DNA of 31,316 nucleotides from Burkholderiaceae bacterium. GTDB lineage: Bacteria > Pseudomonadota > Gammaproteobacteria > Burkholderiales > Burkholderiaceae. Under the pieces are notes generated by a model. That model did not search any database and had not been told where the DNA came from. It saw only the letters and a list, made by a program, of their open reading frames with translations. A program made the position numbers and the translations under genes. Location: assembly GCA_021166835.1 (NCBI GenBank), contig JAJPEN010000050.1, positions 1 through 31,316 of the forward strand, in the 5' to 3' direction. Positions 9,859 through 29,003 of this stretch are shown piece by piece (the stretch's first letter is position 1; the number at the start of each line of letters is the position of its first letter).

Positions 9859-11064
9859 ATGCACGTCGCCGCCGAGATTCCGTACGGGGCCTACTGGAGC
9901 ACGCCGTTCGCGCGCTGGCAAGGCAGCTTCGCCGGCCTGCACAGTATCGAATTCGCCGCGCACGTGGCGCGCGCCGAGCTGGCCCGGCGCGGCATCGCCC
10001 CGGAAGTGCTCGACTACGGGGTGCTCGGCATCTCCGTGCCGCAGAAGCATTCGTTCTACGGCCTGCCATGGCTGGCGGGGCGCATCGGCGCCGGTCACAT
10101 CGGCGGCCCCACGCTGATGCAGGCCTGCGCCACCGGCGTTCGCACGTTGCTGGCCGCGTCGCAGGAGATCGGTGCCGGCCTGGCGAGCGCAGCACTCGCG
10201 ATCAACTGCGACCGCACCTCGAACGGTCCGCACCTCTACTATCCGGATCCTCGCGGGCCTGGCGGCACCGGCACCGCCGAGAACTGGGTGATGGACAACT
10301 TCGGCTGCGACCCGCTCGGCGGCCACACGATGCTGAGCACCGCCGAGAACGTCGCGAAGAAGTACGGCATTTCCACCTCGCAGCAGCACGAAGTCGTCCT
10401 GATGCGCGAAGCGCAGTACCGCGATGCGCTGGCCGACGGCGCGGCGTTCCTCAAGCGCTTCATGACGCTGCCGTTCGAGGTTCCGGCGCCCGGCTACCGA
10501 AAGAGCGCCGGCACGCTCGAGGGCGACGAGGGCGTCACGCACTCCACGCCCGAGGGGCTGGCGCAGCTGCGGCCCGTCGCGCAGGGCGGCACGGTCACCT
10601 ACGGCGGCCAGACGCATCCGGCCGACGGCAATGCGGCGATCCTCGTCGCCGCTCCCGGGCGCGCGCGCGAGCTGTCCAGCGATCCGAAGATCGCGATCCG
10701 GCTGCGCGGCTTCGGTCTGGCGCGCGCCGCGCTCGCCCACATGCCCGAGGCCACGGTGCCGGCGGCGCGGCGCGCGCTCGAGCAGGCCGGACGCACGATC
10801 GGGCAGATGGCGGCGATCAAGACGCACAACCCGTTCGCGGTCAACGACCTGTACTTCGCGCAGCAGACCGGCGTCGAGCTGAGGTCGATGAACAACTATG
10901 GCTGCTCGCTCGTCTGGGGTCATCCGCAGGCGCCGATGGGCACGCGCAGCGTCATCGAGCTGATCGAGGAGCTCGTGATCCGCGGCGGCGGCTGGGGACT
11001 GTTCGCCGGCTGTGCCGCAGGCGACACCGCGATGGCGGTGGTCATCGAGGTCGGCGACGCGTAG
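9859..11064 (+). CDS. Thiolase-family protein (SCP2-type acyltransferase)
   Basis: A 401-residue thiolase-fold enzyme expected to cleave a 3-ketoacyl-CoA with CoA, or to run in reverse. The nucleophilic cysteine is C90 in MQACATG. The histidine motif is KTHNPFAVNDLYF (H323, replacing the common HNEAFA), followed by NNYGCSLVWGHPQAPMG (H355). The second catalytic cysteine is C385 in LFAGCAAGDTAM. The full catalytic set is therefore present although the motif sequences are divergent. No ribosome binding site is evident before ATG 9859. It is divergent from the MarR-type gene and convergent with hyuB. No DUF35-type partner, common beside SCP2-like thiolases, is in the window. A last-step role in the mutase pathway is inferred. 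Confidence 0.85.
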   Translation: MHVAAEIPYGAYWSTPFARWQGSFAGLHSIEFAAHVARAELARRGIAPEVLDYGVLGISVPQKHSFYGLPWLAGRIGAGHIGGPTLMQACATGVRTLLAASQEIGAGLASAALAINCDRTSNGPHLYYPDPRGPGGTGTAENWVMDNFGCDPLGGHTMLSTAENVAKKYGISTSQQHEVVLMREAQYRDALADGAAFLKRFMTLPFEVPAPGYRKSAGTLEGDEGVTHSTPEGLAQLRPVAQGGTVTYGGQTHPADGNAAILVAAPGRARELSSDPKIAIRLRGFGLARAALAHMPEATVPAARRALEQAGRTIGQMAAIKTHNPFAVNDLYFAQQTGVELRSMNNYGCSLVWGHPQAPMGTRSVIELIEELVIRGGGWGLFAGCAAGDTAMAVVIEVGDA

Positions 11065-12885: not shown

Positions 12886-14981
12886 GCCGTTGCCTCCTCG
12901 GTCAGTTGCCCGGCAAGGACCTTCAGGTCGCTGCCCTTGCGATGCATCAGGTAGTTGTTGGCCGCGTCGCAGACCAGCTCGAAATCGGGCGGCACCAGGA
13001 TCGTGGTGGTCGGCTGGACCACGATCGCGGGTCCGGGCACGACGTTGCCGTGAACCAGCCGCTGCCCGTCGTACACCGGCGTCTCGCTGAACGCGCCGCT
13101 GAACCACGCCTTGCGGGAACCGGTGCGCGCCTCGGATGGATCGGCGCCGCGCGCCTCGACCCGTTCGACGGTCGGTTTCCCGGTGAGCCCGCGCGCGCTC
13201 ACGCGCAGATTGATGATCTCGATCGGCGATCCGGGCGTCGAGTAGCCGTACAGCTCGTCGTGGCGGCGGTGGAAGGCCGCTTCGAGCGCTTCGAGCGCCG
13301 CCGGCGTGAACTCGCCGTCGTGAAACGCCGGCACCTCGACCTCGTTGAACTGCCCGACGTAGCGCAGGTCGGCCGAGTATTCGAGAACCACCTGCCGGGA
13401 CGAAACGTTCTCCGCCTCGAGTGTCCGCATGGCGCGGCCGGCGATCTCGCGGTAGATCTGCGCGACCGCGTCGAGATCGACCGCTGCGAACTCGCGCGCA
13501 TAGGTGTGGACGTAGTCGTGCTTGAGATCCGAGAGGAGCATCCCCGCCGCGCAGAACACCGACGACTCGCGGGGAATCAGGATCAGCGGTATCTCGAGGT
13601 CGCGCGCGATCGCCCCCGCGTGCAGGGGGCCGACGCCGCCCGCGACGACCAGCACGAATTCGCGCGGGTCGTAGCCGCGCTGCACCGATGCCACCGAGAT
13701 CGCCGCTGCCATGTTGGCGTTCACGACCTGGTAGATGCCGTAGGCCGCCTCCACCGTGCCGAGCCCGAGCGGCTGGCCGACGTGCTGTGCGATCGCCTCC
13801 TGCGCGGCCTCGCCGTCCAGCGTGAGCTCGTCGCCGGCGCTGTCCAGGTAGCCGAGCACGTAGTTGGCGTCGGTCACGGTCGGCAGAACGCCTCCGCGGC
13901 CGTAGCAGGCCGGCCCCGGAACGGCGCCGGCGCTCTTCGGCCCGACGTTGAGCAGGCCGCCGGCGTCGATCCAGGCGATCGACCCGCCGCCCGAGCCCAC
14001 CGTATGGATGTCGAGGATCGGCGAGGCGACGCGATGCCCGCCGATGCTGCCTTCGGTGGTGACGCCGGGCAGCCCGTTGCGGATCAGCGCGACGTCGAAC
14101 GAGGTGCCTCCCATGTCGACGGTGATCAGGTTGCGGAACCCGTGCACCGATCCGTAGTGGATGCCCGCCTGCGGCGCGCCCGCCGGGCCCGACAGCAGGG
14201 TGTTGGAGGCGAAGCGCTGCGCCACCTCCGGCGACATCACGCCGCCGTTCGACTGCATGATCAGCAGCGTGCCGCCGAAGCCGAGATCGTCGAGCCGTTG
14301 CCGCAGACGCGACAGGTAGCGGTTCAGCACCGGCCCGACGTAGGAGTTCAGCACCGTCGTGCTGTGCCGCTCGTACACCCGGATCTGCGGCAGCACCTCG
14401 GTGGACAGCGAGACGTAGACGCCGGGAAGCTCCTGCTCGAGGATCTCCTTCGTGCGGCGCTCGTGCCGATCGTTGCGGAACGACCAGAGATACGAGACCG
14501 CGACGGCTTCCACGCCTTGCCCGCGGAAGAGCTCGGCCGCGCTGCGGATGTCGCTTTCGTCCAGCGGCGTGGCGACCTCGCCTTCGGAGGACACCCGCTC
14601 GCGGACCGCAGCGATCCGGCGCCGGGGCACCAGTTGCGGCGGCGGCGCGTGGTTGTCGAACTGCTGCTCCTTGATCCCGCGCCGCATGTTCAGCACGTCG
14701 CGGAATCCCTCGGTGGTCACGAAGCCGGTGACCGCGCCCTCGCCGGTCAGCACCGCGTTGGTCGTGATCGTCGTGCCGTGCACGATCGTCTCGACGCGGT
14801 GCAGCCATTCCTTCAGCGTCTGTCCGTCGGCGGTCGCGGCCTTCTCCAGGCCGTTGAAGAAGCCGATCGTCGGATCGCCGGGCGTCGTGGAAGTCTTGTA
14901 GACCCGCGAACTCCCTTCCTCGTCCCTCACCAGGAAGTCGGTGAACGTTCCGCCGACATCCACGCCGATTCGTATCCCCAC
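12882..14981 (-). CDS. Hydantoinase A/oxoprolinase family protein (HyuA-like)
   Basis: A 699-residue ATP-dependent subunit with an acetate-kinase-like nucleotide fold. The first phosphate loop is GVDVGGTFTDF (6-16), HGTTITTN starts at 68, the second phosphate motif DMGGTSFDVALI is at 289-300, and the family signature GGGSIAW...SAGAVPGPACYGRGG runs from 331 to about 364. Length is typical. The start is GTG at 14981, supported by AAAGGAG at good spacing. It should form a complex with the overlapping hyuB product and phosphorylate the substrate or bicarbonate. A 170-bp AT-rich gap separates it from the upstream racemase-like gene, so it probably has its own promoter. Confidence 0.9.
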   Translation of the reverse strand: MGIRIGVDVGGTFTDFLVRDEEGSSRVYKTSTTPGDPTIGFFNGLEKAATADGQTLKEWLHRVETIVHGTTITTNAVLTGEGAVTGFVTTEGFRDVLNMRRGIKEQQFDNHAPPPQLVPRRRIAAVRERVSSEGEVATPLDESDIRSAAELFRGQGVEAVAVSYLWSFRNDRHERRTKEILEQELPGVYVSLSTEVLPQIRVYERHSTTVLNSYVGPVLNRYLSRLRQRLDDLGFGGTLLIMQSNGGVMSPEVAQRFASNTLLSGPAGAPQAGIHYGSVHGFRNLITVDMGGTSFDVALIRNGLPGVTTEGSIGGHRVASPILDIHTVGSGGGSIAWIDAGGLLNVGPKSAGAVPGPACYGRGGVLPTVTDANYVLGYLDSAGDELTLDGEAAQEAIAQHVGQPLGLGTVEAAYGIYQVVNANMAAAISVASVQRGYDPREFVLVVAGGVGPLHAGAIARDLEIPLILIPRESSVFCAAGMLLSDLKHDYVHTYAREFAAVDLDAVAQIYREIAGRAMRTLEAENVSSRQVVLEYSADLRYVGQFNEVEVPAFHDGEFTPAALEALEAAFHRRHDELYGYSTPGSPIEIINLRVSARGLTGKPTVERVEARGADPSEARTGSRKAWFSGAFSETPVYDGQRLVHGNVVPGPAIVVQPTTTILVPPDFELVCDAANNYLMHRKGSDLKVLAGQLTEEATA

Positions 14982-15151: not shown

Positions 15152-16330
15152 TCATTCGCCGCCGATGGCGCCGGCCTTGCGCATGTCGTCGATCCGCTCG
15201 TCGGAATAGCCGACCGAGGCCAGCACGCTGCGCGTGTGCTGTCCGAGGCGCGGAGCCCGCCGGCGGATCTCCAGCGGCGTGGCCGACATCCGGAAGGGGG
15301 GGCCGAGCTGAGCCGGCCCGGCCTCGCCGTCGATCCCGGCGCGGCGGACCATCGCGCGGTGCACGACCTGGCGGTCGGCCAGCGCCTGCGCGACGCTGTT
15401 CACCGGGCCGACGCAGGTGTCGACCGTCGCGAGATCCTCCAGCCACTGTACGCTCGGACGGGTCCGGAGGATCGCGGCGATCTGCGCCTGCACCGCGCGG
15501 CTGCGCTCGCCTTCGGCCCACATCTGCGGCGTCAGGTCCTCCCTGCCGAGGAATGCGCAGAAGTTCCGCCAGAAGTGCGGCTCGGTGCAGCCCACCGTCA
15601 GGTGGCCGTCGAACGTCGGATACACCGCGTAGCAGGGGTGGCCGCCGCTGAGCAACGCGCGCCCTCCGGTCGGCGAGGGGCCTCCGGCGAGCACGGTCAT
15701 CGCGTGGATCGACAGCATCGAGACCAGGCCGTCGAGCATCGCCACGTCGACGAACTGCCCCTGGCCGGTGCGGCGCCGGTGCAGCGTCGCCGCGAGCACC
15801 GCGACCGCCGCCGACAGCGCGCCGGCGCCGATGTCCGCGATCTGGATGCCCGGGATCGCCGGCTGCCCGTCGCCGCCGCGCGTCATGTCGAGCACGCCGG
15901 CGATGCCGAGGTAGTTCAGGTCGTGTCCGGCCTGGTCGCGATACGGGCCGTCCTGGCCGTAGCCCGAGATCGAGCAGTACACGATCTGCGCATTGCGGCT
16001 GCGCGCCGCCTCGTAGTCGATGCCGAGCCGCGCCGCGACGCCGGGCCGGAAGCCTTCCACGACGACGTCGGCAGCGGCGATCAGGCGCAGGCAGGCCTCA
16101 CGGCCGTCCTCGCTCTTCAGGTTCAGCACCACGCTGCGCTTGTTGCGGCCGAGCAGTTCGTAGGCTGCGCCCCGCGCGGCCTCGCCGACCGCCAGCGTGC
16201 GCGCGGCGTCGCCGGCGGCGCTCTCGACCTGGACGACGTCGGCGCCCATGTCCGCCAGCAGCATCGTGCAGAACGGGCCCGGCAGGCGCTGCGTCAGGTC
16301 GATGACCTTGAGACCGTCGAGTGCGCCCAT
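15152..16330 (-). CDS. Class III CoA-transferase fold protein, methylacyl-CoA racemase-like
   Basis: A 392-residue CaiB/BaiF-fold protein. Its active-site segments match the alpha-methylacyl-CoA racemase branch better than formyl- or succinyl-CoA transferases: QAGHDLNYLGIAGVL (H136, D137), IADIGAGAL (D166) and TVGCTEPHFWRNF (E250). These correspond to the catalytic His, Asp and Glu of mycobacterial MCR (H126, D156, E241). It would therefore epimerise a 2-methyl-branched acyl-CoA. A true CoA-transferase role, using the usual catalytic aspartate near D166, cannot be excluded. ATG 16330 is 2 bp after the stop of the acyl-CoA synthetase, so the two form an operon. Confidence 0.82.
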   Translation of the reverse strand: MGALDGLKVIDLTQRLPGPFCTMLLADMGADVVQVESAAGDAARTLAVGEAARGAAYELLGRNKRSVVLNLKSEDGREACLRLIAAADVVVEGFRPGVAARLGIDYEAARSRNAQIVYCSISGYGQDGPYRDQAGHDLNYLGIAGVLDMTRGGDGQPAIPGIQIADIGAGALSAAVAVLAATLHRRRTGQGQFVDVAMLDGLVSMLSIHAMTVLAGGPSPTGGRALLSGGHPCYAVYPTFDGHLTVGCTEPHFWRNFCAFLGREDLTPQMWAEGERSRAVQAQIAAILRTRPSVQWLEDLATVDTCVGPVNSVAQALADRQVVHRAMVRRAGIDGEAGPAQLGPPFRMSATPLEIRRRAPRLGQHTRSVLASVGYSDERIDDMRKAGAIGGE

Positions 16331-16332: not shown

Positions 16333-17895
16333 TCAACCGCCGATCCTGCGCCCGGCGTCCGCCCAGTAGCTTTCGCGCAGCGTCCGCTTGTCCAGTTTGC
16401 CGACCGCGTTGCGTGGGAACTCGTCGACGAGCTCGATCGACTTGGGCGCCTTGTAGCCCGCGATCCGGCTTCGGCAGAAGCCGAGCAGCTCCGCTTCGCT
16501 GGCCTGTCGCCCGGGCCGCAGCGAGACGATCGCCTTGACCGCCTCTCCCCAGCGCGGGTCGGGGACGCCGACGACGGCGACCTCCTTTACCGCGGGGTGC
16601 CGGGCCAGCACGTTCTCGACCTCGACCGGATAGATGTTGTAGCCGCCCGAGACGATCATGAACTTCTTGCGGTCCACCAGGTACAGGTAGCCGCGCTCGT
16701 CGAAGCGGCCCAGGTCGCCGGTGTGCAGCCAGCCGTCGCGGACCGCTTCGGCCGTCAGCTGCGGTGCGTTCCAGTATCCCGGGGTGACGAGCGAGCCCTT
16801 GACCAGGACCTCGCCGATCTCTCCGCTCGCGACCGTCACGCCATGCTCGTCGGCGACCACGACGTCCATGTACGGGACCGGTTTGCCGGCCGAGGCGAGG
16901 ATGTCGTGCTCGCCGGTGCGCAGCGCCTCGCGGTGATCCTCCGGAAACAGCATCGTCGCCATCCCGGTGGCTTCGGTGGCGCCGTACATCTGCAGCATCT
17001 CGACGCCGGGAAAGACCTCCATCGTCAGGCGGATGTTCGCCGGCGTGCACGGCGCCGCACCGTAGATGACCTGTCGCAGCGAGCGCAGGTCGCGCCGCCG
17101 CACCTCCGGATGGTGGATCAGCGACACCAGCATCGTCGGCACGACCAGGGTCCGGGTCACGCGCTCGCGCTCGATGAGCGCGCACGCCTGCTCCGGATCC
17201 CAGCGACGCATGATCACGCAGGTCGCGCCGTGGTAGATCGCCCGCAGGAGGATCAGCAGCGGAATGCCGCCTGCCGGCATCGTGTGCAGCCAGACGTCGC
17301 CGCGGCCGCTGCCTTCGTTCAGCGCGATGTGGCAGAGCGAGTCGATGACCTGGCGCCAGGTCGTCGTCACGCCTTTGGGCAGGCCGGTGGAGCCCGACGA
17401 ATAGAAGAGGTAGCCGGGGTCGTCGACGACGACGGCGACGTCCGGCTCCGCGGACGGATGGCCGGCGAGGGCCGCCTCGTAGTCGACGGCGAACGGATGC
17501 GGGCCGTCGAAGCCGACCAGCAGCGGCGGCGCCGGCAGATCCGGCGCGATCTCGCACAGGTGCCCGGCCAGGGCCGCCTGGACGAACACGACCCGGGCGC
17601 CGCTGTCCTCGAGGATGTGCGCGATTTCCGGCGGCGCATAGCGATGGTTGACGCCGACGCGAACGGCGCCGATCTTCGCGCAGGCGACGACGATCTCGAC
17701 CAGCTCGATGCAGTCGCAGCTGATCGACGCGACGCGGTCGCCGCGCGCCACGCCCGCGGCCAGCAGGAACTGCGCCAGGCGGCAGGCGCGTTCATTCAGC
17801 CGGGCCCAGCCGATCCGCCGGTCGCCGTCGACGTAGGCGGTCTTCGCGGGATAGTTGCGCGCGTTGTGCCGCGCGAGGTGGCCGAACGTGAGCAA
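16333..17895 (-). CDS. AMP-dependent acyl-CoA synthetase
   Basis: A 520-residue class I adenylate-forming enzyme. It has YSSGSTGLPKG (165-175) as the phosphate loop, MYGATEATGMAT as the A5 motif, WLHTGDLGRFDERGYLYLVDRKKFMIVSGGYNIYP spanning the A7-A8 hinge, and the C-terminal NAVGKLDKRTL with the conserved lysine. All core residues are intact. The start is TTG at 17895, with GGAGG 8 bp upstream. It lies between dctM and the racemase-like gene and is probably the ligase that activates the acid imported by the TRAP system. Chain length and ring preference cannot be deduced. Confidence 0.9.
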   Translation of the reverse strand: MLTFGHLARHNARNYPAKTAYVDGDRRIGWARLNERACRLAQFLLAAGVARGDRVASISCDCIELVEIVVACAKIGAVRVGVNHRYAPPEIAHILEDSGARVVFVQAALAGHLCEIAPDLPAPPLLVGFDGPHPFAVDYEAALAGHPSAEPDVAVVVDDPGYLFYSSGSTGLPKGVTTTWRQVIDSLCHIALNEGSGRGDVWLHTMPAGGIPLLILLRAIYHGATCVIMRRWDPEQACALIERERVTRTLVVPTMLVSLIHHPEVRRRDLRSLRQVIYGAAPCTPANIRLTMEVFPGVEMLQMYGATEATGMATMLFPEDHREALRTGEHDILASAGKPVPYMDVVVADEHGVTVASGEIGEVLVKGSLVTPGYWNAPQLTAEAVRDGWLHTGDLGRFDERGYLYLVDRKKFMIVSGGYNIYPVEVENVLARHPAVKEVAVVGVPDPRWGEAVKAIVSLRPGRQASEAELLGFCRSRIAGYKAPKSIELVDEFPRNAVGKLDKRTLRESYWADAGRRIGG

Positions 17896-17934: not shown

Positions 17935-19227
17935 TTACTTCATCATCGACGGCAGCACCAGCGAGATCCAGGGCACCAGGATCAGCACGGTCAGCCGGAC
18001 GACGTCCATCGCCAGGAACGGCATCACGCCGCGGAAGATCACGCCGGTGGGCACCTCGGGCAGCAGGCTGCGCATCACGAACACGTTCATGCCCACCGGC
18101 GGCGAGATCAGGCTGATCTCGGTGACGACCACGACGATGATCCCGAACCAGATCAGGTCCATGCCGAGCGCCGAGACCAGCGGGTAGAAGATCGGCACGG
18201 TCAGCAGGATCATCGAGAAGCTCTCGAGCACGGCGCCGAGCACCAGGTACACCAGCGCGATCGCGAAGATCACCACGAGCGGCGGAACGTCCAGGTGCAT
18301 CACCCAGGCGGTGAGCGTCTCGGGCAGGCCGGACAGATTGATGTAGTTGCCGAAGATCAGCGCTCCGATCACGACGATGAAGATCATCGACGTCGTCGTC
18401 CCGGACTCGATCAGGACCTCGAGGAGCAGGCGCGGGGTCAGTGCGCGGCGCCACAGCGCGAAGACGAAGGCCCCGAACGCGCCGATGCCGGCGGCCTCGG
18501 TGGCGGTGAAGATTCCCACGTACAGGCCGCCGATGACCAGGGTGAACAGGCCCAGGATCGGAAGGACGCCGCGCAGCGCGCGAAACCGCTCCGCATACGG
18601 CAGGCGTTCGCCGCGCGGCCCGAGCTTCGGGTCGATCAGGCACATCAGCCAGACGGCGGTGATGTAGCCGAGCGCGCCCAGCAGGCCCGGCAGCACGCCG
18701 GCCATGAACAGCTTGCCGATGTCGGTCTGCGTCATCAGGCCGTAGATCACCAGCACCACGCTCGGCGGGATCAGGATGCCCAGCGTTCCGCCGGCCGCGA
18801 TCGATCCGGTGGCCAGCGACGGCGCGTAGCCGCGGCTGAGCATCGGCTTCATCGCGACCTTGGTCATCGTCGCGGCGGTGGCCACCGACGATCCGCACAC
18901 CGAGCTGAAACCGGCGCAGGCGACCACGGTCGCCTGCGCCAACCCGCCGCGCCGGTGCCCGAGCCAGGCGTTGGCGGCGGCATACAGCTCGTCGGACATG
19001 CCCGAGCGGGTGACGAAGCTGCCCATCAGGATGAACAGCGGAATCACCGACAGCTCGTAGCTCAGCCCGGTCTCGTAGGTGATCTGGCCGACCATGTTCA
19101 ACGCGGCCGGCAATCCCAGGTACAGCGCGGAGCCGAACAGGCCGACGATGCCCATCGCGAACGCGATGGGCATGCCGGTCATGATCAGGACGATCAGCAG
19201 CGCGAAGCCGACGTGCCAGGTTTCCAT
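17935..19227 (-). CDS. TRAP transporter large permease (DctM-like)
   Basis: A 430-residue integral membrane protein of the DctM family, which carries Na+-coupled secondary transport in TRAP systems. About 11-12 hydrophobic segments are visible. Family motifs include TGMPIAFAMGIVGLFGSALY near the N-terminus, FSSVCGSSVATAATM, the loop AAGGTLGILIPPSVVLVIYG, and ISPPVGMNVFVM near the C-terminus. ATG 19227 starts 4 bp after the dctQ stop. It forms the membrane complex with DctQ and receives substrate from DctP. Confidence 0.94.
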   Translation of the reverse strand: METWHVGFALLIVLIMTGMPIAFAMGIVGLFGSALYLGLPAALNMVGQITYETGLSYELSVIPLFILMGSFVTRSGMSDELYAAANAWLGHRRGGLAQATVVACAGFSSVCGSSVATAATMTKVAMKPMLSRGYAPSLATGSIAAGGTLGILIPPSVVLVIYGLMTQTDIGKLFMAGVLPGLLGALGYITAVWLMCLIDPKLGPRGERLPYAERFRALRGVLPILGLFTLVIGGLYVGIFTATEAAGIGAFGAFVFALWRRALTPRLLLEVLIESGTTTSMIFIVVIGALIFGNYINLSGLPETLTAWVMHLDVPPLVVIFAIALVYLVLGAVLESFSMILLTVPIFYPLVSALGMDLIWFGIIVVVVTEISLISPPVGMNVFVMRSLLPEVPTGVIFRGVMPFLAMDVVRLTVLILVPWISLVLPSMMK

Positions 19228-19231
19228 CCGC

Positions 19232-19735
19232 CTACGCTCCGGATGCCGCGTAGCGGGCGCGGCGAAGGGACTCGACGAGGTGCGCCCCGGAGAACCCCGC
19301 GGCGAGGGCGGTGAGGAGAAACATCAGGTAGCAGACCGGATACATCGGCAGTCCGAGATACATGCTCTGGTCGCCGGCGGCCAGCGTTGCGCCGGCTTTC
19401 ACCCATAGCCGCCACGCCAGCGCTGCGAGCGCGAGGGTGCTGACCAGATGGTTGAAGAGGCCCAGCCTTCGCCGCGACCGGTCCGACAGGCTGCCGAGGG
19501 CGATGTCCACCCGGATGTGCACGTCGTCGGCGCAGACGAGCGGCAACCCGGAGAAGATCAGGACCGCCATCAGGATCTGCGTGAGCTCGAAGGCTCCGGG
19601 CAGCGGCAGGCTGAACAGGTAGCGGCCCATCACGTCGACGAAGGTGACGAGCATCAGCAGGAACAGGATCGCCGCCATGGTCAGTCCCAGCAGGCGCAGC
19701 AGCCTGCCGGAGCCGGGGGACCGGGGGAGAGTCAT
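19232..19735 (-). CDS. TRAP transporter small permease (DctQ-like)
   Basis: A 167-residue membrane protein with four predicted helices. The DctQ signature FVDVMGRYLFSLPLPGAFELTQILM lies across helices 1-2 and is followed by LVCADDVHIRVDIALGSL. ATG 19735 has GGAGA upstream. It sits between dctP (74-bp gap) and dctM (4-bp gap), the standard P-Q-M order. Confidence 0.92.
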   Translation of the reverse strand: MTLPRSPGSGRLLRLLGLTMAAILFLLMLVTFVDVMGRYLFSLPLPGAFELTQILMAVLIFSGLPLVCADDVHIRVDIALGSLSDRSRRRLGLFNHLVSTLALAALAWRLWVKAGATLAAGDQSMYLGLPMYPVCYLMFLLTALAAGFSGAHLVESLRRARYAASGA

Positions 19736-19809: not shown

Positions 19810-20850
19810 CTACTTTCCGTAGGCGACGATCTCGGCGCGCAGCGCGTCGAGCGCGGCCTTGCCGTCGACCGGACCTGCCTGGACCTTGGCGAGCCAGGCC
19901 GCCTCCAGCGGAGCGAGGCGCTCGCGGATCGCTGCGAGCAGCGACGGCTCGACGGGGTCGATGTTCATGCCCGCCGCGCGCATCTGGTCGAGCGCTCCCG
20001 CGTCCGCCGCATCCCAGGCCTGGCCTGCGAGGCGGGCGAAGGCTTCGCCGGAGACGCTCATGATCGCCTTGCGGTCATGCTCCGACAGGCGATTCCAGGC
20101 TGCCTCGTTCATCACGAGAAAGAAGCTCGCGTTGTAGAAGCCGGTCGGCGCGAGCGTCGCGTACTTCAGCACCTTTTCCAGCTTGAAGAACGGCACCGAG
20201 TCCTTGCTGAACATGATGCCGTCGGCCACGCCGCTGGACAGCAGCTCGTACGACTTGGACGAGGGCGCCTGCAGCGGCACCATCTTCAGCGCCTTGGCCA
20301 GCTCGTTCGTCGACACGTTGGGAATCCGCACCTTCAGGCCCTCGAAGTCGGCGATCGCGCGGATCGGGCGCCGGCTGTTGAAGATCTGGCCGGGGCCCTG
20401 GGTGAACACGCTCAGCACCTTCGTGCCCGCGTGCTCGTTCGCCTTCGCGAGATGCCTCTCGAAGACGCGCCAGTAGGCGACGGACAGCGGCTCGGCCTTC
20501 TCGCTCAGGAACGGCAGCTCGACCATCTCGGCGAGCGCGAAGCGCCCCGGACTGTAGCCGTGGACGCCGTAGGTGATGTCGGAGACTCCGTCCTTCGCGA
20601 GATCGAAGTGGGACTGCGGGCTTCCGAGGGCGGTCGTGAGCACCTGGATCTTCACCCGGCCCTCGGTCACGGCATCGACCTGCTTCGCCCACGGAACGAT
20701 CATGTCCTTGACGATCGGATGGCTCGGCGGCAGCCAGTTCGACAGGCGCAGCACGGTGGTCTGCGCCGCGAGCGGCGCGGCAAGACACAGCGCGGCCGAG
20801 GCGACCGCGAATCGCAGCGCGCGCAGCGCTCTTCCTGCTTTCAATCTCAT
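19810..20850 (-). CDS. TRAP transporter periplasmic substrate-binding protein (DctP-like)
   Basis: A 346-residue periplasmic solute receptor. The signal peptide spans residues 1 to about 30 (basic start, hydrophobic core, APLAAQ cleavage region). The mature protein begins TTVLRLSNWLPPSHPI, typical of DctP. R175 in LKVRIPN is at the conserved position that salt-bridges the substrate carboxylate in DctP-family receptors, so the ligand is expected to be an organic acid. GAGAGGAG precedes ATG 20850. It is the first gene of the leftward operon and is divergent from the mutase. Confidence 0.92.
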   Translation of the reverse strand: MRLKAGRALRALRFAVASAALCLAAPLAAQTTVLRLSNWLPPSHPIVKDMIVPWAKQVDAVTEGRVKIQVLTTALGSPQSHFDLAKDGVSDITYGVHGYSPGRFALAEMVELPFLSEKAEPLSVAYWRVFERHLAKANEHAGTKVLSVFTQGPGQIFNSRRPIRAIADFEGLKVRIPNVSTNELAKALKMVPLQAPSSKSYELLSSGVADGIMFSKDSVPFFKLEKVLKYATLAPTGFYNASFFLVMNEAAWNRLSEHDRKAIMSVSGEAFARLAGQAWDAADAGALDQMRAAGMNIDPVEPSLLAAIRERLAPLEAAWLAKVQAGPVDGKAALDALRAEIVAYGK

Positions 20851-21136: not shown

Positions 21137-22783
21137 ATGGGCGGCCGACTGGCTTCATCGCACGCAGGACCCGCGCGCGACAGCGAGGAACAGATTTTCG
21201 AGACCGGCGCCGGGCTGGAGATCCGCGAACTCTATCGGCCGGACGACATCGCCGGGTTCGATCCGGCGCAGGATCTGGGCGAGCCGGGGCACTTCCCGTT
21301 CACGCGCGGTCCGTATCCCGGCATGTATCGCGAGCGGATCTGGACGCGCCGCTTCCAGGTCGGATTCGGCTCGCCGCTCGAGACCAACGAGCGGATCAAG
21401 TATCTCCACTCCCAGGGCGCGAACGGCTTCGTCATCACGATCGACCTGCCCACGTCGTACGGCTTCGATTCGGACGATCCGCTGAGCGACGGCGAGGTCG
21501 GAGTCACCGGCGTGCCGATCAGCACGCTGGAGGACATGGAGACGCTGTACGAGGGCTTCGGACCGGACTCGGTGTCCTATGCGTTGTCGATCCGGCCGCC
21601 GGTCTCGTCGGTCACGCTGGCGATGCTCGCATCGGTCGCGCAGCGCCGCAACGTGCCTTTCGAGAAGGTCATCGGCACGCAGCAGAACGATCCGTTCTAC
21701 CAGATGAGCGGCGGCCCGCTGCAGACGATCACCCAGTTCTTCCCGCTCGAGGGAACGTTGCGCCTGTGCATCGACAACATCGAGTTCATCTCGAAGAACA
21801 TGCCGCGCCTGAACTGGATGGTCACCAACGGCTACAACCTGCGCGAGACCGGCGTCAACGCGATCCAGGACGGCGCGTTCACGCTGGGCCACGCATTCGA
21901 CATCTTCCGCCGTGCGCGTGCGCGCGGGCTCGACGTCGACCTCTTCCCGCGGCGCGCCTCGTTCTTCCTGTCGTGCTCGATCGACTTCTTCGAGGAGATC
22001 GCGAAGTTCCGCGCGATGCGGCGGCTCTACGCGAGAACGATGCGCGAGGAATTCGGCGCGAGCAATCCGGAATGCTGGCGACTGCGGTTCTCGGTGCAGT
22101 CTGCGGGCAACACGCTGACGCGCCAGCAGCCGGAGGTGAACATCATCCGGGCCGGCGTCGAAGCGATGGCGGCCGTCTTCGGAGGCGCGCAGTCGATCCA
22201 CCTGTGCTCGTACGACGAGGCGCACGGGTTGCCGACCGAGGAGTCGTCGCGCATCGCGCTGCGCACGCAGCAGGTGATCGCCTACGAGAGCGGCATCACG
22301 AAGACGATCGATCCGCTCGGCGGCTCGTACTACGTCGAGACCCTGACCAACCGGATGGAAGAGGCGATCCGCGAGAAGCTGGCGGAGATCGACGACAACG
22401 GCGGCATGATCGAATGCATTCGCGCGGGATGGCTGGAGAGCCAGATCAACGACGAGCGCATCCGCAACCAGAACGATCTCGACACGCGCCGCCGTACGCT
22501 GGTCGGCGTCAATCGCTTCCAGATTCCACGGGAGGAGGAGATTCCGCTGAAGATCCACAGGATCCAGGCCGAGCAGTGGGGGGCGCGACGCGGCGAATAT
22601 CTGCGCGAGTACCGGGTGTCGCGCGACCAGGGCAGGTGGGCGGACGCGATGGCGCGGCTGGAGGCCGGCTGGAGGAGCGGTGAAAACATGGTTCCGCTGC
22701 TGATGGACGCGCTGCAGAACAAAGTGACGATGGGCGAATGCCATGAGGCGATGCGCAACGCCCAGAACTGGTCTTTCCGCTGA
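21137..22783 (+). CDS. B12-dependent acyl-CoA mutase, large (substrate-binding) subunit, atypical
   Basis: A 548-residue TIM-barrel subunit of the methylmalonyl-/isobutyryl-/2-hydroxyisobutyryl-CoA mutase family, without its own B12 domain, as in split Icm and Hcm enzymes. CoA contacts of P. shermanii MCM are kept (M63, R67, T70, R72 for M78, R82, T85, R87), and Q183 matches Q197. Key positions differ. The Y89 specificity residue (Phe in Icm, Ile in Hcm) is Q74. The Hcm-specific Asp position is T101. No Arg equivalent to R207 exists between Q183 and R209. Catalytic H244 is N234 in NGYNLRETG. It therefore probably acts on a non-carboxylated but unusual acyl-CoA. AAGGAGG precedes the ATG, and the B12 subunit follows 12 bp later. 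Alignment was by eye. Confidence 0.9.
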   Translation: MGGRLASSHAGPARDSEEQIFETGAGLEIRELYRPDDIAGFDPAQDLGEPGHFPFTRGPYPGMYRERIWTRRFQVGFGSPLETNERIKYLHSQGANGFVITIDLPTSYGFDSDDPLSDGEVGVTGVPISTLEDMETLYEGFGPDSVSYALSIRPPVSSVTLAMLASVAQRRNVPFEKVIGTQQNDPFYQMSGGPLQTITQFFPLEGTLRLCIDNIEFISKNMPRLNWMVTNGYNLRETGVNAIQDGAFTLGHAFDIFRRARARGLDVDLFPRRASFFLSCSIDFFEEIAKFRAMRRLYARTMREEFGASNPECWRLRFSVQSAGNTLTRQQPEVNIIRAGVEAMAAVFGGAQSIHLCSYDEAHGLPTEESSRIALRTQQVIAYESGITKTIDPLGGSYYVETLTNRMEEAIREKLAEIDDNGGMIECIRAGWLESQINDERIRNQNDLDTRRRTLVGVNRFQIPREEEIPLKIHRIQAEQWGARRGEYLREYRVSRDQGRWADAMARLEAGWRSGENMVPLLMDALQNKVTMGECHEAMRNAQNWSFR

Positions 22784-22795
22784 GGAGGCACGATC

Positions 22796-23197
22796 GTGAC
22801 CGCGCCGAAACGCATCCTGCTCGCGAAGATGGGGCTCGACTGCCACGACACCGGGATCATCACGGTCGCCAGCATGCTGCGCGACGCAGGCTACGAAGTG
22901 ATCTATCTCGGTCTGCACAACCAGGCCGATCAGGTGATGAAGGTGGCGATCGAGGAGGACGTCGACGCGATCGGAATCAGCTTCCTGTCCGGTCAGCACA
23001 TGACGCAGATGCGCCGCCTGCTGGAACGGATCCGGGAACGCGGCCTGTCGATCCCGGTGTTCTGCGGCGGCGTGATCCCCGAAGACGACGCGCGGGCGCT
23101 CCGGCAGATGGGGGCAGCGGACGTCATTCTGCCCGGCACGCTCTCGTCCGAGCTGGTGCGCCTGGTCGATGCCACCATGAACCGCGTGCGCGCGTGA
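22796..23197 (+). CDS. B12-binding small subunit of the acyl-CoA mutase
   Basis: A 133-residue Rossmann-like cobalamin-binding protein, the size of IcmB and HcmB. It has the DxHxxG motif D15-C-H17-D-T-G20 for base-off/His-on binding, with K11-D15-H17 matching the Lys604-Asp608-His610 relay of methylmalonyl-CoA mutase. The SxL motif is S62-F-L64 and the GG motif is G91-G92. All B12-binding elements are intact. The start codon is GTG at 22796 with GAGGAGG upstream. It should pair with the adjacent large subunit to make the active adenosylcobalamin mutase. The MeaB/ArgK-type GTPase chaperone often found beside such genes is absent from this window. Confidence 0.94.
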   Translation: MTAPKRILLAKMGLDCHDTGIITVASMLRDAGYEVIYLGLHNQADQVMKVAIEEDVDAIGISFLSGQHMTQMRRLLERIRERGLSIPVFCGGVIPEDDARALRQMGAADVILPGTLSSELVRLVDATMNRVRA

Positions 23198-23216: not shown

Positions 23217-24779
23217 ATGACGCTCGACAGGATCGTACGTCGCAATGCGCTGCGCTTCCCTGCCAGGGCTGCGGTGCTGGCGGGGACGGGCAGCATCAGC
23301 TGGCAGGAGCTCGATCGTCGCGCCGACCGGATCGCCAACGCGCTGCATGAGCGCGGCCTGGTCGCCGCCGACCGCGTCGCCGTGCTGCTCGGCAACTGCG
23401 CGGAGATGGTGGAGCTGTACTTCGGCATCGCGCGTGCCGGCCTGATCGCCGTGCCGCTGAACTGGCGGCTCACGAACGGCGAGATGTCGCAGCTGCTCGA
23501 ACGTGCCGAGCCGGCCTTGCTGGTCGTCGGTGCGGCGTTCGCGGAGCCGTTCGGACAGACGCTCGCTTCCGCGGCGAGCCCTGCGCGCCTGTGGGTCGTC
23601 GGCGGCGAGTTGCCCGGCGCCGAGTGCTACGAACGCGTCGTCGAACAGGCCGGCGACACCCCGATCGAATCGTCGGCGAACGACGACGAACCGTTCGCGA
23701 TCTTCTTCACCAGCGGCACCACCGGCCTGCCCAAGGGGGCGATGGTTTCGCACCGCAATCTGGTGGCCAACGCGTTCAACCAGTTCGTCGCCGACGCCAG
23801 CCGGCCCGACGATGTGAACCTCGTCGCCACGCCGCTCTACCACATGGGCGCAGTGTTCATGTCGGTTACGTACATGATGCTCGGCTGTACGCAGGTGGTG
23901 CTGGAGAAATTCGATCCGGCGGCCTGGCTGGACGCGGTTGCGCGATACAGGGCGAGCGTTTCACTGCTCGTCCCGACGATGATCAACGCCGTCGTCAATC
24001 ATCCCGCGATCGCACAAGCCGATCTCGAAAGCCTGCGCTGTCTGTTCTACGGCGGCGGCCCGATGCCGCCGAAGGTCCTGCGGCGCGCGATGCAATCGCT
24101 GCGCTGCGGGTTCACCCAGGGCTACGGCCTGACCGAAACGCTCGAAGCCACGTTCCTGGTCGCCTCGGATCACGTTCTCGACGGCGACGAGCGTCAGCAG
24201 CGACGCCTGGCTTCCGCCGGCCGGGAGGCGGTCGGCGCGGAGGTGCGGGTCGTCACGTCCGAGGGCCGGGACGCGGCGCCCTTCGAGGTTGGCGAAGTGC
24301 TCGTGCGCAGCGAGTCGGTCATCGCGGGATACTGGCGGATGCCGGAGGAAACGGCGCGGGTGATCCGTGACGGGTGGTTCCATACCGGCGATCTCGGCTA
24401 TCTCGACGACGAGCGCTACCTGTTCGTGGTCGACCGCATCAAGGACATGGTCGTCACCGGCGGCGTAAACGTCTACACGAAGGAGGTCGAGGCGGTCCTG
24501 TTCGAGCATCCGGCGGTGCTGGAGGCGGCGGTCGTCGGGCTGCCCGACGACGAGTGGGGCGAGGTCGTCGCCGCTGCCGTCGTGGTGCGGCCGGGACAGG
24601 CCCTTTCGGCCGAGGCACTGATCGAGCACTGCCGGAAGTCGCTGGCCGGCTTCAAGAAGCCGCGCCTGGTCCATTTCCTGGACGACCTGCCGCGCAACCC
24701 GAGCGGAAAGATCCTCAAGCGCGAACTGCGGCGCCAACTGTCCGGGGTTGGTCGGCCGGCACCGGGCGCTTCCTCCTGA
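23217..24779 (+). CDS. AMP-dependent acyl-CoA synthetase
   Basis: A 520-residue adenylate-forming ligase with an intact phosphate loop (FFTSGTTGLPKGAMVSH, about 162-178), QGYGLTETLEAT as A5, WFHTGDLGYLDDERYLFVVDRIKDMV in the A7-A8 region, and the C-terminal NPSGKILKREL lysine motif. GGAAGG lies just before ATG 23217, 19 bp after the B12 subunit. A dedicated ligase next to a split mutase parallels the 2-hydroxyisobutyrate operon organisation (hcl with hcmA/hcmB). It may make the mutase substrate directly from a branched acid. It is not close to the other ligase at 16333-17895, so two different acids or two pathway steps are possible. Confidence 0.9.
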   Translation: MTLDRIVRRNALRFPARAAVLAGTGSISWQELDRRADRIANALHERGLVAADRVAVLLGNCAEMVELYFGIARAGLIAVPLNWRLTNGEMSQLLERAEPALLVVGAAFAEPFGQTLASAASPARLWVVGGELPGAECYERVVEQAGDTPIESSANDDEPFAIFFTSGTTGLPKGAMVSHRNLVANAFNQFVADASRPDDVNLVATPLYHMGAVFMSVTYMMLGCTQVVLEKFDPAAWLDAVARYRASVSLLVPTMINAVVNHPAIAQADLESLRCLFYGGGPMPPKVLRRAMQSLRCGFTQGYGLTETLEATFLVASDHVLDGDERQQRRLASAGREAVGAEVRVVTSEGRDAAPFEVGEVLVRSESVIAGYWRMPEETARVIRDGWFHTGDLGYLDDERYLFVVDRIKDMVVTGGVNVYTKEVEAVLFEHPAVLEAAVVGLPDDEWGEVVAAAVVVRPGQALSAEALIEHCRKSLAGFKKPRLVHFLDDLPRNPSGKILKRELRRQLSGVGRPAPGASS

Positions 24780-24801: not shown

Positions 24802-26556
24802 ATGAACAGCCCGTACCTGCCGCCGCTCGCCGATCTGCGCTTCGTGCTGAACGAAGTGCTCGGATACGAGCGGCTGTTTTCGCTGTCGGCGTACCGGCAT
24901 GCCGACGCCGACGTTGCCGACGCGATCCTGTCCGAGGCGGGTCGCTTTGCGGCCGAAGTGCTCGCGCCGCTCGGGCCGATCGGCGACGTCCATGGCACGC
25001 GCTTCGAGCACGGGCGGGTGACGATGCCGCCCGCCTTCCGCGCGGCGTACGCGCAGTACGTGGAGGGCGGATGGCCCGGCCTGGACATGCCGCGCGAGCA
25101 CGGCGGGCAGGATCTGCCGCTCGTCCTGCAGGCGGCGTTCGCCGAGCTGGTCAACGGCGCGTGCGTCGCATTCGGCATGCTGCCGCTGATGGAACGCGCG
25201 GCCACGCGCCTGCTGATCGCGCATGCGCGACCCGAGCTGGTGCAGCGCCTGGTGCCATCGATGGCGGCAGGAACCTGCGGGGCGACGATCTGCATCTCCG
25301 AGCCGCAGGCGGGCTCGGACGTCGGACGCATCGCGACCCGCGCGCGCCTGGACGCCGGCGGCGTCCACCGTGTCAGCGGGACGAAGATGTTCATCACCTA
25401 CGGCGACCATGACCTGACCGGGCAGATCGTCCACATGGTCCTGGCGAGGCTGCCGGGCGCGGCGCCCGGAACCCGCGGGCTGAGCCTGTTCGCAGTGCCG
25501 AGCCGCCGGCTGGACGGCGACGGGGCGGCTCCGGACAACGGCGTCCATATCGTCCACGTCGAGCGCAAGATGGGGCTGAAGGCCTCGCCCACCTGCGTCG
25601 TGGAGTTCGACGACTCCGAAGGCTACCTGGTCGGTGAGGAGCACGCGGGGCTCAAGGCGATGTTCACGATGGTGAACGCGATGCGCCTGGAGGTTGCGGT
25701 GCAGGGCGTGGCGATCGCTGGAGCGGCGACCGCGAGAGCGCTGCGCTACGCTGCCGAGCGTACCCAGGGAGGAGCACCGGACTCGGCGCCGCCGGCGATC
25801 ATCGGGCACGCCGACGTCCGCCGGATGCTGTACGAAATGCGCGCCCGCACCGAGGGCCTGAGGGCACTCGTGCTGGAGGCGGCGTTCCAGCTCGACCTCT
25901 CCCAGTGCGGCGCACCCGCCGAGCGGGCCGACGCGCTGGTGCTGGCCGAATGGCTGCTGCCTGTCTGCAAGGCGTACGGCTCGGAGGCCGGCTTCGACGT
26001 CGCAAACCTCGCGGTGCAGGTGTTCGGCGGCCACGGCTATATTTCCGACACCGGCGTCGAGCAGTACGTCCGCGATAGCCGGGTGATGTCGATTTATGAA
26101 GGCGCGAACGGCATCCAGGCGCTCGACCTGGTGATGCGCAGGCTCGCGCCGGACGGCCGCTCCTATCGGATGTTCACCGAGCGGATCCGCGCCGATCTTC
26201 TCCGGCTGTCCGGACACCCCGACGTCGAAGGCATCGTTCGTGCGCTCGACGACGGGCTGACCCGGCTCGACGCCTGCACCGAGGCATTGCTGGCGTCGAT
26301 TCCGGCCGCGAAGCGCGATGCGGAAGCGGGCGCGAGCGCATACCTGAAGATGGTCGGGCTGGTGGGTACGGGCTGGATGTGGCTGCGCATGGCCGCCGCA
26401 GCCGAGGGCTCGCCGCTGCAGCGGACGAAGCGAGCGCTCGCCGGGTTCCATGCGGCCTACCTGATGCCCGAGATCGCGGTCCTCGAGCGGCGCGCGCTGC
26501 TCGGAGCGTCTGTGCTCGACGAGCTCGACGCCCGGGAGCTGGCCGGCACCGGGTGA
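24802..26556 (+). CDS. Acyl-CoA dehydrogenase, DmdC-type
   Basis: A 584-residue FAD-dependent acyl-CoA dehydrogenase of the long subfamily that includes 3-(methylthio)propionyl-CoA dehydrogenase (DmdC). The N-terminal extension MNSPYLPPLADLRFVLNEVLG and the roughly 150-residue C-terminal helical domain are characteristic. The FAD and substrate loop CISEPQAGSDVG is present. The catalytic base is E433 in SIYEGANGIQALDL. ATG 24802 is 22 bp after the ligase stop, with no strong ribosome binding site. It would introduce an alpha,beta double bond in the mutase product or precursor. Members of this subfamily have varied substrates, so DMSP metabolism should not be assumed. Confidence 0.9.
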   Translation: MNSPYLPPLADLRFVLNEVLGYERLFSLSAYRHADADVADAILSEAGRFAAEVLAPLGPIGDVHGTRFEHGRVTMPPAFRAAYAQYVEGGWPGLDMPREHGGQDLPLVLQAAFAELVNGACVAFGMLPLMERAATRLLIAHARPELVQRLVPSMAAGTCGATICISEPQAGSDVGRIATRARLDAGGVHRVSGTKMFITYGDHDLTGQIVHMVLARLPGAAPGTRGLSLFAVPSRRLDGDGAAPDNGVHIVHVERKMGLKASPTCVVEFDDSEGYLVGEEHAGLKAMFTMVNAMRLEVAVQGVAIAGAATARALRYAAERTQGGAPDSAPPAIIGHADVRRMLYEMRARTEGLRALVLEAAFQLDLSQCGAPAERADALVLAEWLLPVCKAYGSEAGFDVANLAVQVFGGHGYISDTGVEQYVRDSRVMSIYEGANGIQALDLVMRRLAPDGRSYRMFTERIRADLLRLSGHPDVEGIVRALDDGLTRLDACTEALLASIPAAKRDAEAGASAYLKMVGLVGTGWMWLRMAAAAEGSPLQRTKRALAGFHAAYLMPEIAVLERRALLGASVLDELDARELAGTG

Positions 26557-27152: not shown

Positions 27153-28067
27153 ATGCCCCGCTTCCGCACGCTGAAGTACGCGCCCGACCGCGCCAATCCG
27201 CGCATCGCGCGCATCACGCTGAATCGTCCCGAGCGGTTGAACGCGATCGACGAGCGCATGCCGGGCGAGATCCGGCGCGCGGTGGAGGCGGCCAACGACG
27301 ACGACGAGGTGCACGTGATCGTCGTCTCCGGCGCGGGCCGCGCGTTCTGCGCCGGCTACGACCTGCAGGCCTTCGCCGAGGGCGTCGTCGACCACCCGTG
27401 CCAGCAGGAAAGCACGCCGTGGGATCCGATGCTCGACTACCGCACGATGAAGCGCTTCACCGAAGACTTCATGAGCCTGTGGCACAGCTACAAGCCGACG
27501 ATCGCGCAGGTGCACGGCCACGCGGTGGCCGGCGGCAGCGACATCGCGCTGTGCTGCGACCTGCTGGTGATGGCCGACGATGCGCGCATCGGCTACATGC
27601 CCACGCGCGTCTGGGGCTGTCCGACGACGGCGATGTGGACGTACCGGCTCGGGCCGATGCGCGCCAAGCAGCTGCTCTTCACCGGCGACACGATCGACGG
27701 CGCCACCGCGAAGGCGTGGGGGCTGGCCGTGGATGCCGTGCCTGCGGATACTCTCGAGGAGAGCGTTCGCTCGCTGGCCGAGCGCATCGCCGGCGTGCCG
27801 CGCGGCCAGCTGATGATGCAGAAGCTCGTCATCAACCAGGTGCTCGAGTCGATGGGGCTGGAGCAGACGCAGATGTTCGCCACGCTGTTCGACGGCATCA
27901 CGCGGCACAATCCCGAAGGGATGTGGTTCCGCCGCAGGGCGCAGCTGCACGGCTACAAGGACGCCGTCGCCTGGCGCGATTCCGGCCGGCCGATCCCCGA
28001 GGGAGCGGAGGCGCAGGCGCTGGTCGAGCGGATGCAGCGCGAGCTGGACGCAAAGAAGCGCGACTGA
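27153..28067 (+). CDS. Enoyl-CoA hydratase/isomerase (crotonase) family protein
   Basis: A 304-residue crotonase-fold protein, slightly longer than the usual 260. The CoA-binding and oxyanion-hole segments are clear: [15 protein letters not shown] (61-74) and [23 protein letters not shown] (125-147). Relative to rat enoyl-CoA hydratase, Glu144 is replaced by D130 and Glu164 by T151 (in YMPTRVWG), so simple hydratase activity is doubtful. Isomerase, hydrolase or other crotonase chemistry is possible. GGAGG precedes ATG 27153, and TACACT about 25 bp upstream is a possible -10. It forms an operon with the SDR 33 bp downstream. Confidence 0.87.
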
Positions 28068-28100: not shown

Positions 28101-29003
28101 ATGTTCCGTACGGACCTGCTTCGCGGCAAGCGAATCCTGATCACCGGCGGCGGCACCGGCCTGGGCCGCGCGATGGGCGAGCGCTATCTCGCGCTCGGCG
28201 CCGATCTCGTGATCTGCGGGCGGCGCAAGGGCGTGCTCGATGCGGCGGCCGAGGAGATGACGAATGCGCACGGCGGACGCGTGGAAGCCTACGGCGTCGA
28301 CATCCGCGATGCGCAGGCGGTCGACGCGATGGTCGAGTCGATCTTCGCGGCCGGCCCGCTCACCGGCCTCGTCAACAACGCGGCCGGCAACTTCATCAGC
28401 CCCACCGAGATGCTGTCGCCGCGCGCATTCGACGCAATCGCGAACATCGTCTTCCACGGCACCTTCTACGTCACGAACGCGGTCGGCCGGCGCTGGATCG
28501 AGCAGGCGCGCGCCGCGGGCGGCTGGTCGAGCCCGCAGCCGATGAAGTCGGTGATCTCGATCATCGTCACCTGGGTCGAGAACGGCGGGCCCTTCACCGT
28601 GCCGTCGGCGATGAGCAAGGCCGGGGTCGCGGTGATGACGAAGTCGCTCGCCGTCGAGTGGGCGCAATACGGGATCCGGCTGAATGCGATCGGCCCGGGC
28701 GAGATCCCCACGGAAGGGATGAGCAAGCGGCTGAACCCCGGCGAGGCGCCGGGCGAGCGATCGAAGGAGACGAACCCGCAGCATCGCGTCGGCGAGTTGA
28801 GCGAGCTGCAGAACCTCGCGACCTTCCTGATGGCCGACGGATGCGACTGGCTCAGCGGCCAGACGCTGTTCATGGACGGCGGGCACTCGCTGGCCACCGG
28901 CGGCAACTTCTATCCGCTGCGCGACTGGAGCGACGAGCAGTGGCGGGAGGCGCGGGCGCGCATCGAGGCGCAGAACGCGAAGGATCGGGAGCAGCGGGGT
29001 TGA
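28101..29003 (+). CDS. SDR oxidoreductase, 2,4-dienoyl-CoA reductase-like
   Basis: A 300-residue short-chain dehydrogenase/reductase. The cofactor loop is TGGGTGLG (15-22), followed by CGRR, whose basic residues after strand 2 suggest NADPH. NNAAGNF is the structural motif. The active-site region reads FTVPSAMSKAGVAVMTKSLAVEW, where the usual tyrosine four residues before lysine is serine. This matches the FVVPSASAKAGVEAM pattern of mitochondrial 2,4-dienoyl-CoA reductase. IGPGEIPTEGMSKRL and MDGGHSLATGG also fit that group. AAGGAGG precedes the ATG. With the crotonase-family gene it suggests processing of unsaturated acyl-CoAs. Confidence 0.87.
   Translation: MFRTDLLRGKRILITGGGTGLGRAMGERYLALGADLVICGRRKGVLDAAAEEMTNAHGGRVEAYGVDIRDAQAVDAMVESIFAAGPLTGLVNNAAGNFISPTEMLSPRAFDAIANIVFHGTFYVTNAVGRRWIEQARAAGGWSSPQPMKSVISIIVTWVENGGPFTVPSAMSKAGVAVMTKSLAVEWAQYGIRLNAIGPGEIPTEGMSKRLNPGEAPGERSKETNPQHRVGELSELQNLATFLMADGCDWLSGQTLFMDGGHSLATGGNFYPLRDWSDEQWREARARIEAQNAKDREQRG

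Follow-up and report, generated by a model that had tools for sequence, protein, structure and literature searches.

The mutase genes and their products

The stretch of DNA analysed here (hereafter the window) comprises 31,316 nucleotides of contig JAJPEN010000050.1 from the Burkholderiaceae assembly GCA_021166835.1. It carries two adjoining genes whose products, here named MutL and MutS, correspond to the large and the B12-binding small subunit of an acyl-CoA mutase, together with genes for a two-subunit hydantoinase/oxoprolinase (HyuA and HyuB), CoA ligases, a transporter and enzymes of the beta-oxidation type (Table 1). Both mutase reading frames are uninterrupted; that of MutL starts with an ATG at 21137, preceded by AAGGAGGAG, and that of MutS with a GTG at 22796, preceded by GAGGAGG. 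MutL scores 495 bits against TIGR00641 (cut-off 304) and MutS 120 bits against TIGR00640 (cut-off 57). MutL stays under the cut-offs of NF006944, the NCBIfam equivalog for methylmalonyl-CoA mutase (MCM), a model that spans the fused protein (409 bits, cut-off 876), and of NF045497, for IcmF (215 bits, cut-off 1500). The mutase fold was also found in the predicted structure of MutL, an AlphaFold2 model built from 78 rows (one locus being present twice) that supersedes a poor model from 21 close rows (predicted local distance difference test score of 71). By family and predicted fold, the pair is a split adenosylcobalamin (AdoCbl)-dependent acyl-CoA mutase, presumably an active one.

Active-site substitutions

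The residues of MutL were mapped by alignment to the structures of MCM (1req_A) and of 2-hydroxyisobutyryl-CoA mutase (Hcm, 4r3u_A). We take the numbering of these files to lie one below the published numbering for MCM and eleven above that for Hcm; the substrate and CoA contact roles of the MCM residues and the published HcmA numbers Ile90, Asp117 and Gln208 are likewise assumed. Tyr89 of MCM is replaced by Q74, the Asp117 site of Hcm is occupied by T101 and His244 is replaced by N234 in a stretch aligned without gaps. Arg207 corresponds to T197, which follows a four-residue insertion (residues 192-195), and further changes are found at Ser114 (V99), Ser164 (A149), Thr166 (S151) and Asn168 (R153). 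The residue is unchanged at the sites of Tyr75, Met78, Arg82, Thr85, Arg87, Thr195, Gln197, Asn236, Arg283, Ser285, Phe287 and Gln330. MutL therefore differs both from HcmA, which has Ile90, Asp117, Gln208 and the His where the window has Q74, T101, T197 (within a longer loop) and N234, and from the methylmalonyl-CoA mutases (1req, human MMUT and E. coli ScpA; 31-38% identity), whose Tyr89, Arg207 and His244 it lacks and in which, unlike in the window, the small subunit is not a separate protein.

The original prediction, made from the window's sequence, had already listed the replacements at Tyr89, at Asp117 of Hcm and, without gaps, at His244, and the alignments place them at the same positions. 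It had also described the CoA-binding residues as kept, which holds for most of the presumed contact sites, and the cobalamin motif as complete, which is the case in MutS (K11, D15, H17, G20, S62-F-L64 and G91-G92). Its view that His244 is conserved in characterised members agrees with our comparison, in which His was observed in HcmA, three MCMs, E. coli ScpA and PcmA, a set without EcmA and IcmA. One claim was not borne out as worded, namely that no residue can replace the carboxylate-binding Arg207, as it passed over R153. This Arg takes the place of the Asn found in 78 of 79 His-type enzymes; it lies two residues past S151 (the Thr166 site) and four past A149 (the Ser164 site), in phase with both, and its side chain may, judging from this spacing, point into the barrel. 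Since R153 is invariant and in phase with these two sites, the lack of a substitute for Arg207 is not established.

The residues Q74, T101, S151, R153, T197 and N234 do not vary: each is found in 120/120 homologues (74-91% identity), a set restricted to the nearest relatives, the best 120 of 7999 candidates scored (7994 at E<=1e-60). The contact positions 60, 63, 67, 70, 226, 233, 275, 277 and 321 are kept in the same 120 sequences. The invariance of the altered sites argues for a real, constrained subfamily, and neither for a sequencing error nor for decay. In acyl-CoA mutases, His244 is credited with aiding and shielding the radical rearrangement, and MCM is reported to be strongly slowed by its mutation; mutant structures with H244A and Y89F exist as deposits in the PDB. 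One could thus imagine that MutL, in which His244, Tyr89 and Arg207 are all substituted, is a degenerate or regulatory relative that no longer catalyses any rearrangement, the more so as the loss of this His is reportedly so costly in MCM. We regard this as highly improbable, as the same replacements and contact positions are kept throughout the 120 homologues, the B12 motif of the small subunit is complete and the clade with Asn or Asp at this site is broad (see below). The first two of these points also suggest that the enzyme should be functional, as originally predicted. Altered radical handling is plausible in MutLS, because Asn, unlike His, cannot donate a proton.

Phylogeny and distribution of the His-less mutases

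MutL is not an isolated oddity. A comparison set of 117 mutases was made up of the fetched loci and references; its members were selected for their resemblance to the window and through a profile search aimed at His-less relatives, and its proportions therefore do not reflect natural frequencies. The 244 site is occupied by His in 79 of them, Asp in 26, Asn in 11 and Ala in one, an Asn/Asp/Ala series of 38/117. Position 153 changes in step: Asn is present there in 78/79 His-type enzymes and 3/38 of the others. As the His-less rows are mostly of one ancestry, this joint change of 153 and 234 does not amount to many-fold independent evidence. The stretch 185-203 measures 19 residues in 9/11 Asn-type rows and 15 in all 79 His-type rows.

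A tree of large subunits, proposed with the original prediction as a check, was reconstructed with care from 45 rows (none of them EcmA or IcmA references) and places MutL outside the HcmA, PcmA, MCM and IaaG-like groups. Twenty-five rows with Asn or Asp, including MutL, form a single clade (support 100/99) that is split in an Asn subclade (16 rows, 99/96) and an Asp subclade (9 rows, 100/100). The His-type rows, HcmA, PcmA and ScpA included, fall outside it. Forcing the window clade together with HcmA was rejected by the approximately unbiased (AU) test (p 0.0027), as was its grouping with the IaaG-like rows (p 0.0073); these two groupings, the only ones submitted to the test, were put to it once the tree was already known. 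The separation from the MCM and PCM rows relies on the tree topology, PcmA being a very long branch.

Three His-less rows lie outside the main clade, of which L048 keeps Asn153 and L058 and L135 do not. The L048 protein (9977-12025, from a Hyphomicrobium metagenome-assembled genome, or MAG) is a split mutase in which Asn occupies the His244 site, and is encoded next to a MeaB and a CoA ligase gene. It groups with HcmA in a quick tree (93), though not firmly in the careful one, and possibly represents an independent loss of the His. The Ala-type mutase (L135:5812-7518, genome G1024; GGYAHRDSG) has Arg at the 153 site and is flanked on both sides by Asp-type mutases. Within the phylum of G831 (the Syntrophaceae MAG that contains locus L032), enzymes of the His-less type occur in 15/297 genomes, with 34 matches at the set threshold, although three of these genomes (G829, G830 and G832) are the source of loci within the search profile. 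Thirty of the 34 matches were delivered as loci and all of these are non-His (26 Asp, 4 Asn). The Asp-type mutases among them (L098-L127; YDLRETG or YDMRETG) come as several paralogues per genome, with four matches, the number scored per genome, in each of G875, G911, G832 and G830, and adjoin acyl-CoA dehydrogenases and hydratases in several loci. Two Asn-type mutases with a GTIMNC motif (L130 and L132) are clustered with genes for TRAP (tripartite ATP-independent periplasmic) transporters, AMP-forming ligases and PaaK-like proteins.

The close subfamily of the window is rare in the genome collections scanned. It was found in 1/150 genomes of relatives and, in larger draws, in 0/399 genomes of the order, 0/398 of the phylum and 1/294 of the family to which the Glaciimonas MAG of locus L001 belongs, the one being that genome itself; the draws overlap, and at most three or four candidates were scored per genome in the three larger ones. 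A plasmid search with MutL returned 410 records, every one under 60% identity. A DNA motif scan of 398 genomes gave a single match, in which the only long open reading frame listed looked integrase-like by eye, and it was set aside as a chance match.

Gene neighbourhood of the mutase

Genes in the window were called by third-position GC content and Pfam matches (Table 1). The plus-strand group that runs from MutL to the short-chain dehydrogenase is interrupted by a minus-strand AHSA1 gene, and the hydantoinase pair belongs to a divergent operon. Proteins of the two-subunit hydantoinase/oxoprolinase type are described as ATP-dependent cyclic amidohydrolases (PMC5214803). Against the PDB, HyuA of the window scores 528 bits with 5-oxoprolinase and 373 bits with acetophenone carboxylase; a role of HyuAB as ketone carboxylase was set aside, as only two subunits are seen and 5-oxoprolinase is the better match. 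A second module (488-9112) consists of a Liv-type ABC transporter, whose genes enclose one for a CoA ligase, and a PaaK-like ligase. In make-up it resembles the genes next to the pivalyl-CoA mutase of Xanthobacter (Xaut_5037-5044).

Table 1 Features of the window (positions in the 31,316-nucleotide stretch)
Feature	Positions	Strand	Basis or remark
MarR-type regulator	9131..9742	-	Pfam
Thiolase	9859..11064	+	Pfam
Hydantoinase/oxoprolinase subunit B (HyuB)	11167..12885	-	PF02538, 516 bits; ATG at 12885
Hydantoinase/oxoprolinase subunit A (HyuA), 699 aa, ATP-dependent lactam/imide hydrolase type	12882..14981	-	Pfam
Class III CoA-transferase	15152..16330	-	PF02515, 372 bits; ATG at 16330
LigB, second AMP-forming CoA ligase	16333..17895	-	Pfam
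TRAP transporter, DctM (17935-19227) and DctQ (19232-19735)	17935..19735	-	Pfam
DctP, TRAP transporter binding protein, divergent from mutase	19810..20850	-	Pfam
MutL, B12 acyl-CoA mutase large subunit, 548 aa, Asn at His244 site	21137..22783	+	TIGR00641
Codon of Q74 (MCM Tyr89 site)	21356..21358	+	Invariant, 120/120
Codon of R153 (MCM Asn168 site), covaries with residue 234	21593..21595	+	
Loop at Arg207 site, residues 186-203, four residues longer than in His-type	21692..21745	+	
Codon AAC of N234 (MCM His244 site)	21836..21838	+	Invariant, 120/120
MutS, B12-binding small subunit, 133 aa, DxHxxG, SxL and GG all present	22796..23197	+	TIGR00640, 120 bits
LigC, AMP-forming CoA ligase, directly 3' of mutase	23217..24779	+	Pfam AMP-binding, 291 bits
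Acyl-CoA dehydrogenase, long (PF12806) type, YEG motif	24802..26556	+	ATG at 24802
Enoyl-CoA hydratase	27153..28067	+	Pfam ECH_1
Short-chain dehydrogenase	28101..29003	+	Pfam

Three loci of the close clade can be read: the window, L001 and that of genome G005. In L001 the genes form a single row (thiolase-HyuA-HyuB-MutL-MutS-LigC-dehydrogenase), and in G005 HyuA-HyuB-MutL-MutS-LigC is followed by a partial thiolase gene facing LigC at the contig end. The hydantoinase pair accompanies the mutase in 3/3 loci, and in L001 and G005 these genes are consecutive on one strand. LigC, downstream of the mutase, is likewise present in all three (72% identical to that of the window in L001, 65% in G005), as are the thiolase (74% and, over 112 residues at the contig end, 84%) and a nearby MarR gene (53% and 83%, in G005 about 11 kb before HyuA). 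The YEG-type dehydrogenase is shared by the window and L001 (70%). The hydantoinases of the window are close to those of G005 (90% for A, 83% for B), whereas only 50% of HyuA and 42% of HyuB residues are identical between the window and L001, whose HyuA proteins are left unpaired in the HyuA tree. As the mutases of these two loci are 85% identical, the association seems to have outlasted the divergence or replacement of one partner, which argues for a functional link. Outside the window's clade, the pairing recurs at L154 (G831) and L153 (G834), where HyuA lies near a His-type mutase, with a CoA ligase or with a TRAP transporter and a PaaK-like ligase.

This association also bears on the possibility that MutLS resembles the pivalyl-CoA mutase and acts on acids with a quaternary or bulky alpha-carbon, the hydantoinase operon being a chance neighbour or serving another compound. 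Xaut_5043, which we take to be PcmA, is likewise split, with CoA ligase genes in its vicinity, and its altered pocket is devoid of Arg207, Asn168 and Tyr89; moreover, the hydantoinase of the window is on the strand opposite to the mutase. Nevertheless, His244 is retained in PcmA, a distant, long-branched relative (35% identity), and in L001 and G005 hydantoinase and mutase genes follow one another on the same strand. This alternative appears improbable.

Comparison with the indoleacetate pathway

A parallel to this gene set is the indoleacetate route of A. aromaticum. This route is described as including a gamma-lactamase of the hydantoinase (Hyd) branch (PMC5214803), the CoA-transferase IaaL, the mutase IaaGH and the decarboxylating dehydrogenase IaaF, whose orthologues carry GGG in place of YEG as a signature (PMC8360864). 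MutLS could accordingly be IaaGH, the (2-aminophenyl)succinyl-CoA/benzylmalonyl-CoA mutase by which indoleacetate is degraded anaerobically, in a variant iaa operon in which the hydantoinase would be the 2-oxoindoleacetyl-CoA lactamase, the class III CoA-transferase IaaL, and Arg153 would hold the carboxylate. The content of the window fits well: a hydantoinase pair, a class III CoA-transferase, a PaaK-like ligase, a thiolase, a hydratase and a short-chain dehydrogenase. In addition, close homologues of MutL bear the names of Georgfuchsia and Aromatoleum, and in the HyuA tree L001 falls together with an iaa-type locus, L146 (97/92).

That locus (L146/L147; genome G835, contig C51, a Rokubacteria MAG) was labelled iaa-type from its gene content and GGG motif rather than by comparison with the IaaG of A. 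aromaticum. Its genes, on one strand, encode the GGG dehydrogenase, MutS, MutL, CoA-transferase, HyuA, HyuB, a Liv transporter and a PaaK-like ligase, and it has two hydantoinase pairs. The pathway of IaaGH, which this locus represents here, has in common with the window a hydantoinase-type lactamase, a CoA-transferase and beta-oxidation. Yet the mutase of L146, 38-40% identical to MutL, keeps Tyr89, Arg207 and His244, as one would expect if its substrate carries a free carboxylate, and belongs to another clade, whereas the window combines a Q74/T197/N234 mutase with a YEG dehydrogenase. The YEG motif, which differs from the GGG of IaaF orthologues (PMC8360864), the Tyr/Arg/His mutase of the iaa-type operon, the rejection by the AU test of a joint grouping with the IaaG-like rows and the CoA ligase directly after the mutase in 3/3 loci make the IaaGH identity distinctly unlikely. 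It had been the first explanation considered and was demoted on the first two of these grounds.

A putative lactam-degradation pathway

From the sequence, predicted fold, clade and gene neighbourhood, we infer an activity, a substrate, a direction and a chemistry for MutLS. We give about even chances to the view that it is an active split AdoCbl acyl-CoA mutase, from a separate Asn-type clade, that works in a lactam-degradation pathway. Its substrate would be a lactam-derived, probably alpha-branched acyl-CoA. A free carboxylate is proposed to be absent from it, mainly because the mutase lacks the Arg207 clamp and the dehydrogenase lacks the decarboxylating signature. In such a pathway, HyuAB would open a cyclic amide with ATP and LigC would convert the freed acid to its CoA thioester. 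MutLS, with AdoCbl, would then move the thioester carbonyl onto the adjacent carbon in a 1,2-shift, turning the alpha-branched into a straight-chain acyl-CoA, and the YEG-type dehydrogenase, the hydratase, the short-chain dehydrogenase and the thiolase would complete beta-oxidation. Asn234, perhaps with Arg153, would hold the thioester carbonyl in place of His244, and the Arg207 carboxylate clamp would be replaced by the longer loop without Arg. Each enzyme role follows from family membership and the order of steps from chemistry.

Several observations weigh against this pathway. The conserved context comes from three loci only, two of them apparently of one genus, and the gene after LigC in G005 encodes the thiolase rather than the dehydrogenase, the best match to the latter (57%) lying on a different contig. 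The window has an additional CoA-transferase, TRAP transporter and second ligase; no matches to the CoA-transferase and TRAP genes were found in the L001, L094 and L095 stretches (E<=1e-20). No hydantoinase was found near those Asn-type relatives that do not belong to the close clade (L002, L013, L130 and L132). Among plasmids, the protein most similar to HyuA of the window (55%) is encoded amid amidase genes with no adjoining mutase. Besides, the substrates of hydantoinase-type proteins also include other cyclic amides. The argument for a carboxylate-free substrate would fall if the invariant Arg153 binds a carboxylate, as it could. Finally, no MeaB-type GTPase or adenosyltransferase is present among the genes identified in the window (1-31316). 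A MeaB-type GTPase is annotated beside HcmA, PcmA and ScpA, unlike in the window.

A more specific version of the lactam pathway, which we consider rather unlikely, would make MutLS a 2-arylpropanoyl-CoA/3-arylpropanoyl-CoA mutase in an unreported pathway for skatole (3-methyloxindole type). The hydantoinase would open 3-methyloxindole to 2-(2-aminophenyl)propanoate, LigC would activate it and the mutase would yield 3-(2-aminophenyl)propanoyl-CoA, which the YEG dehydrogenase, hydratase, short-chain dehydrogenase and thiolase would convert to 2-aminobenzoyl-CoA and acetyl-CoA. The product radical would be benzylic, so that the proton donor His244 would be dispensable and hence dropped. If true, this pathway would mirror the indoleacetate route without its carboxylate, and the wider Asn/Asp clade would represent natural His244 replacements for other substrates.

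Implications

The original prediction saw in these substitutions a new substrate class. A new substrate does seem likely, as the mutase genes travel with a lactam-opening module; the picture of a singular enzyme gives way to that of a member of a wider His-less series. A literature search recognised no His-less acyl-CoA mutase and no such pathway, though its sources were mostly titles and abstract openings with few subscription journals, which leaves the absence unproven. For the family, a natural clade devoid of His244, in which the 153 position changes in step, offers ready variants on the need for proton donation to the thioester carbonyl. The operon link provides a candidate substrate class, the CoA esters of opened lactams, and suggests that B12-dependent rearrangement may be used in the breakdown of N-heterocycles beyond indoleacetate.

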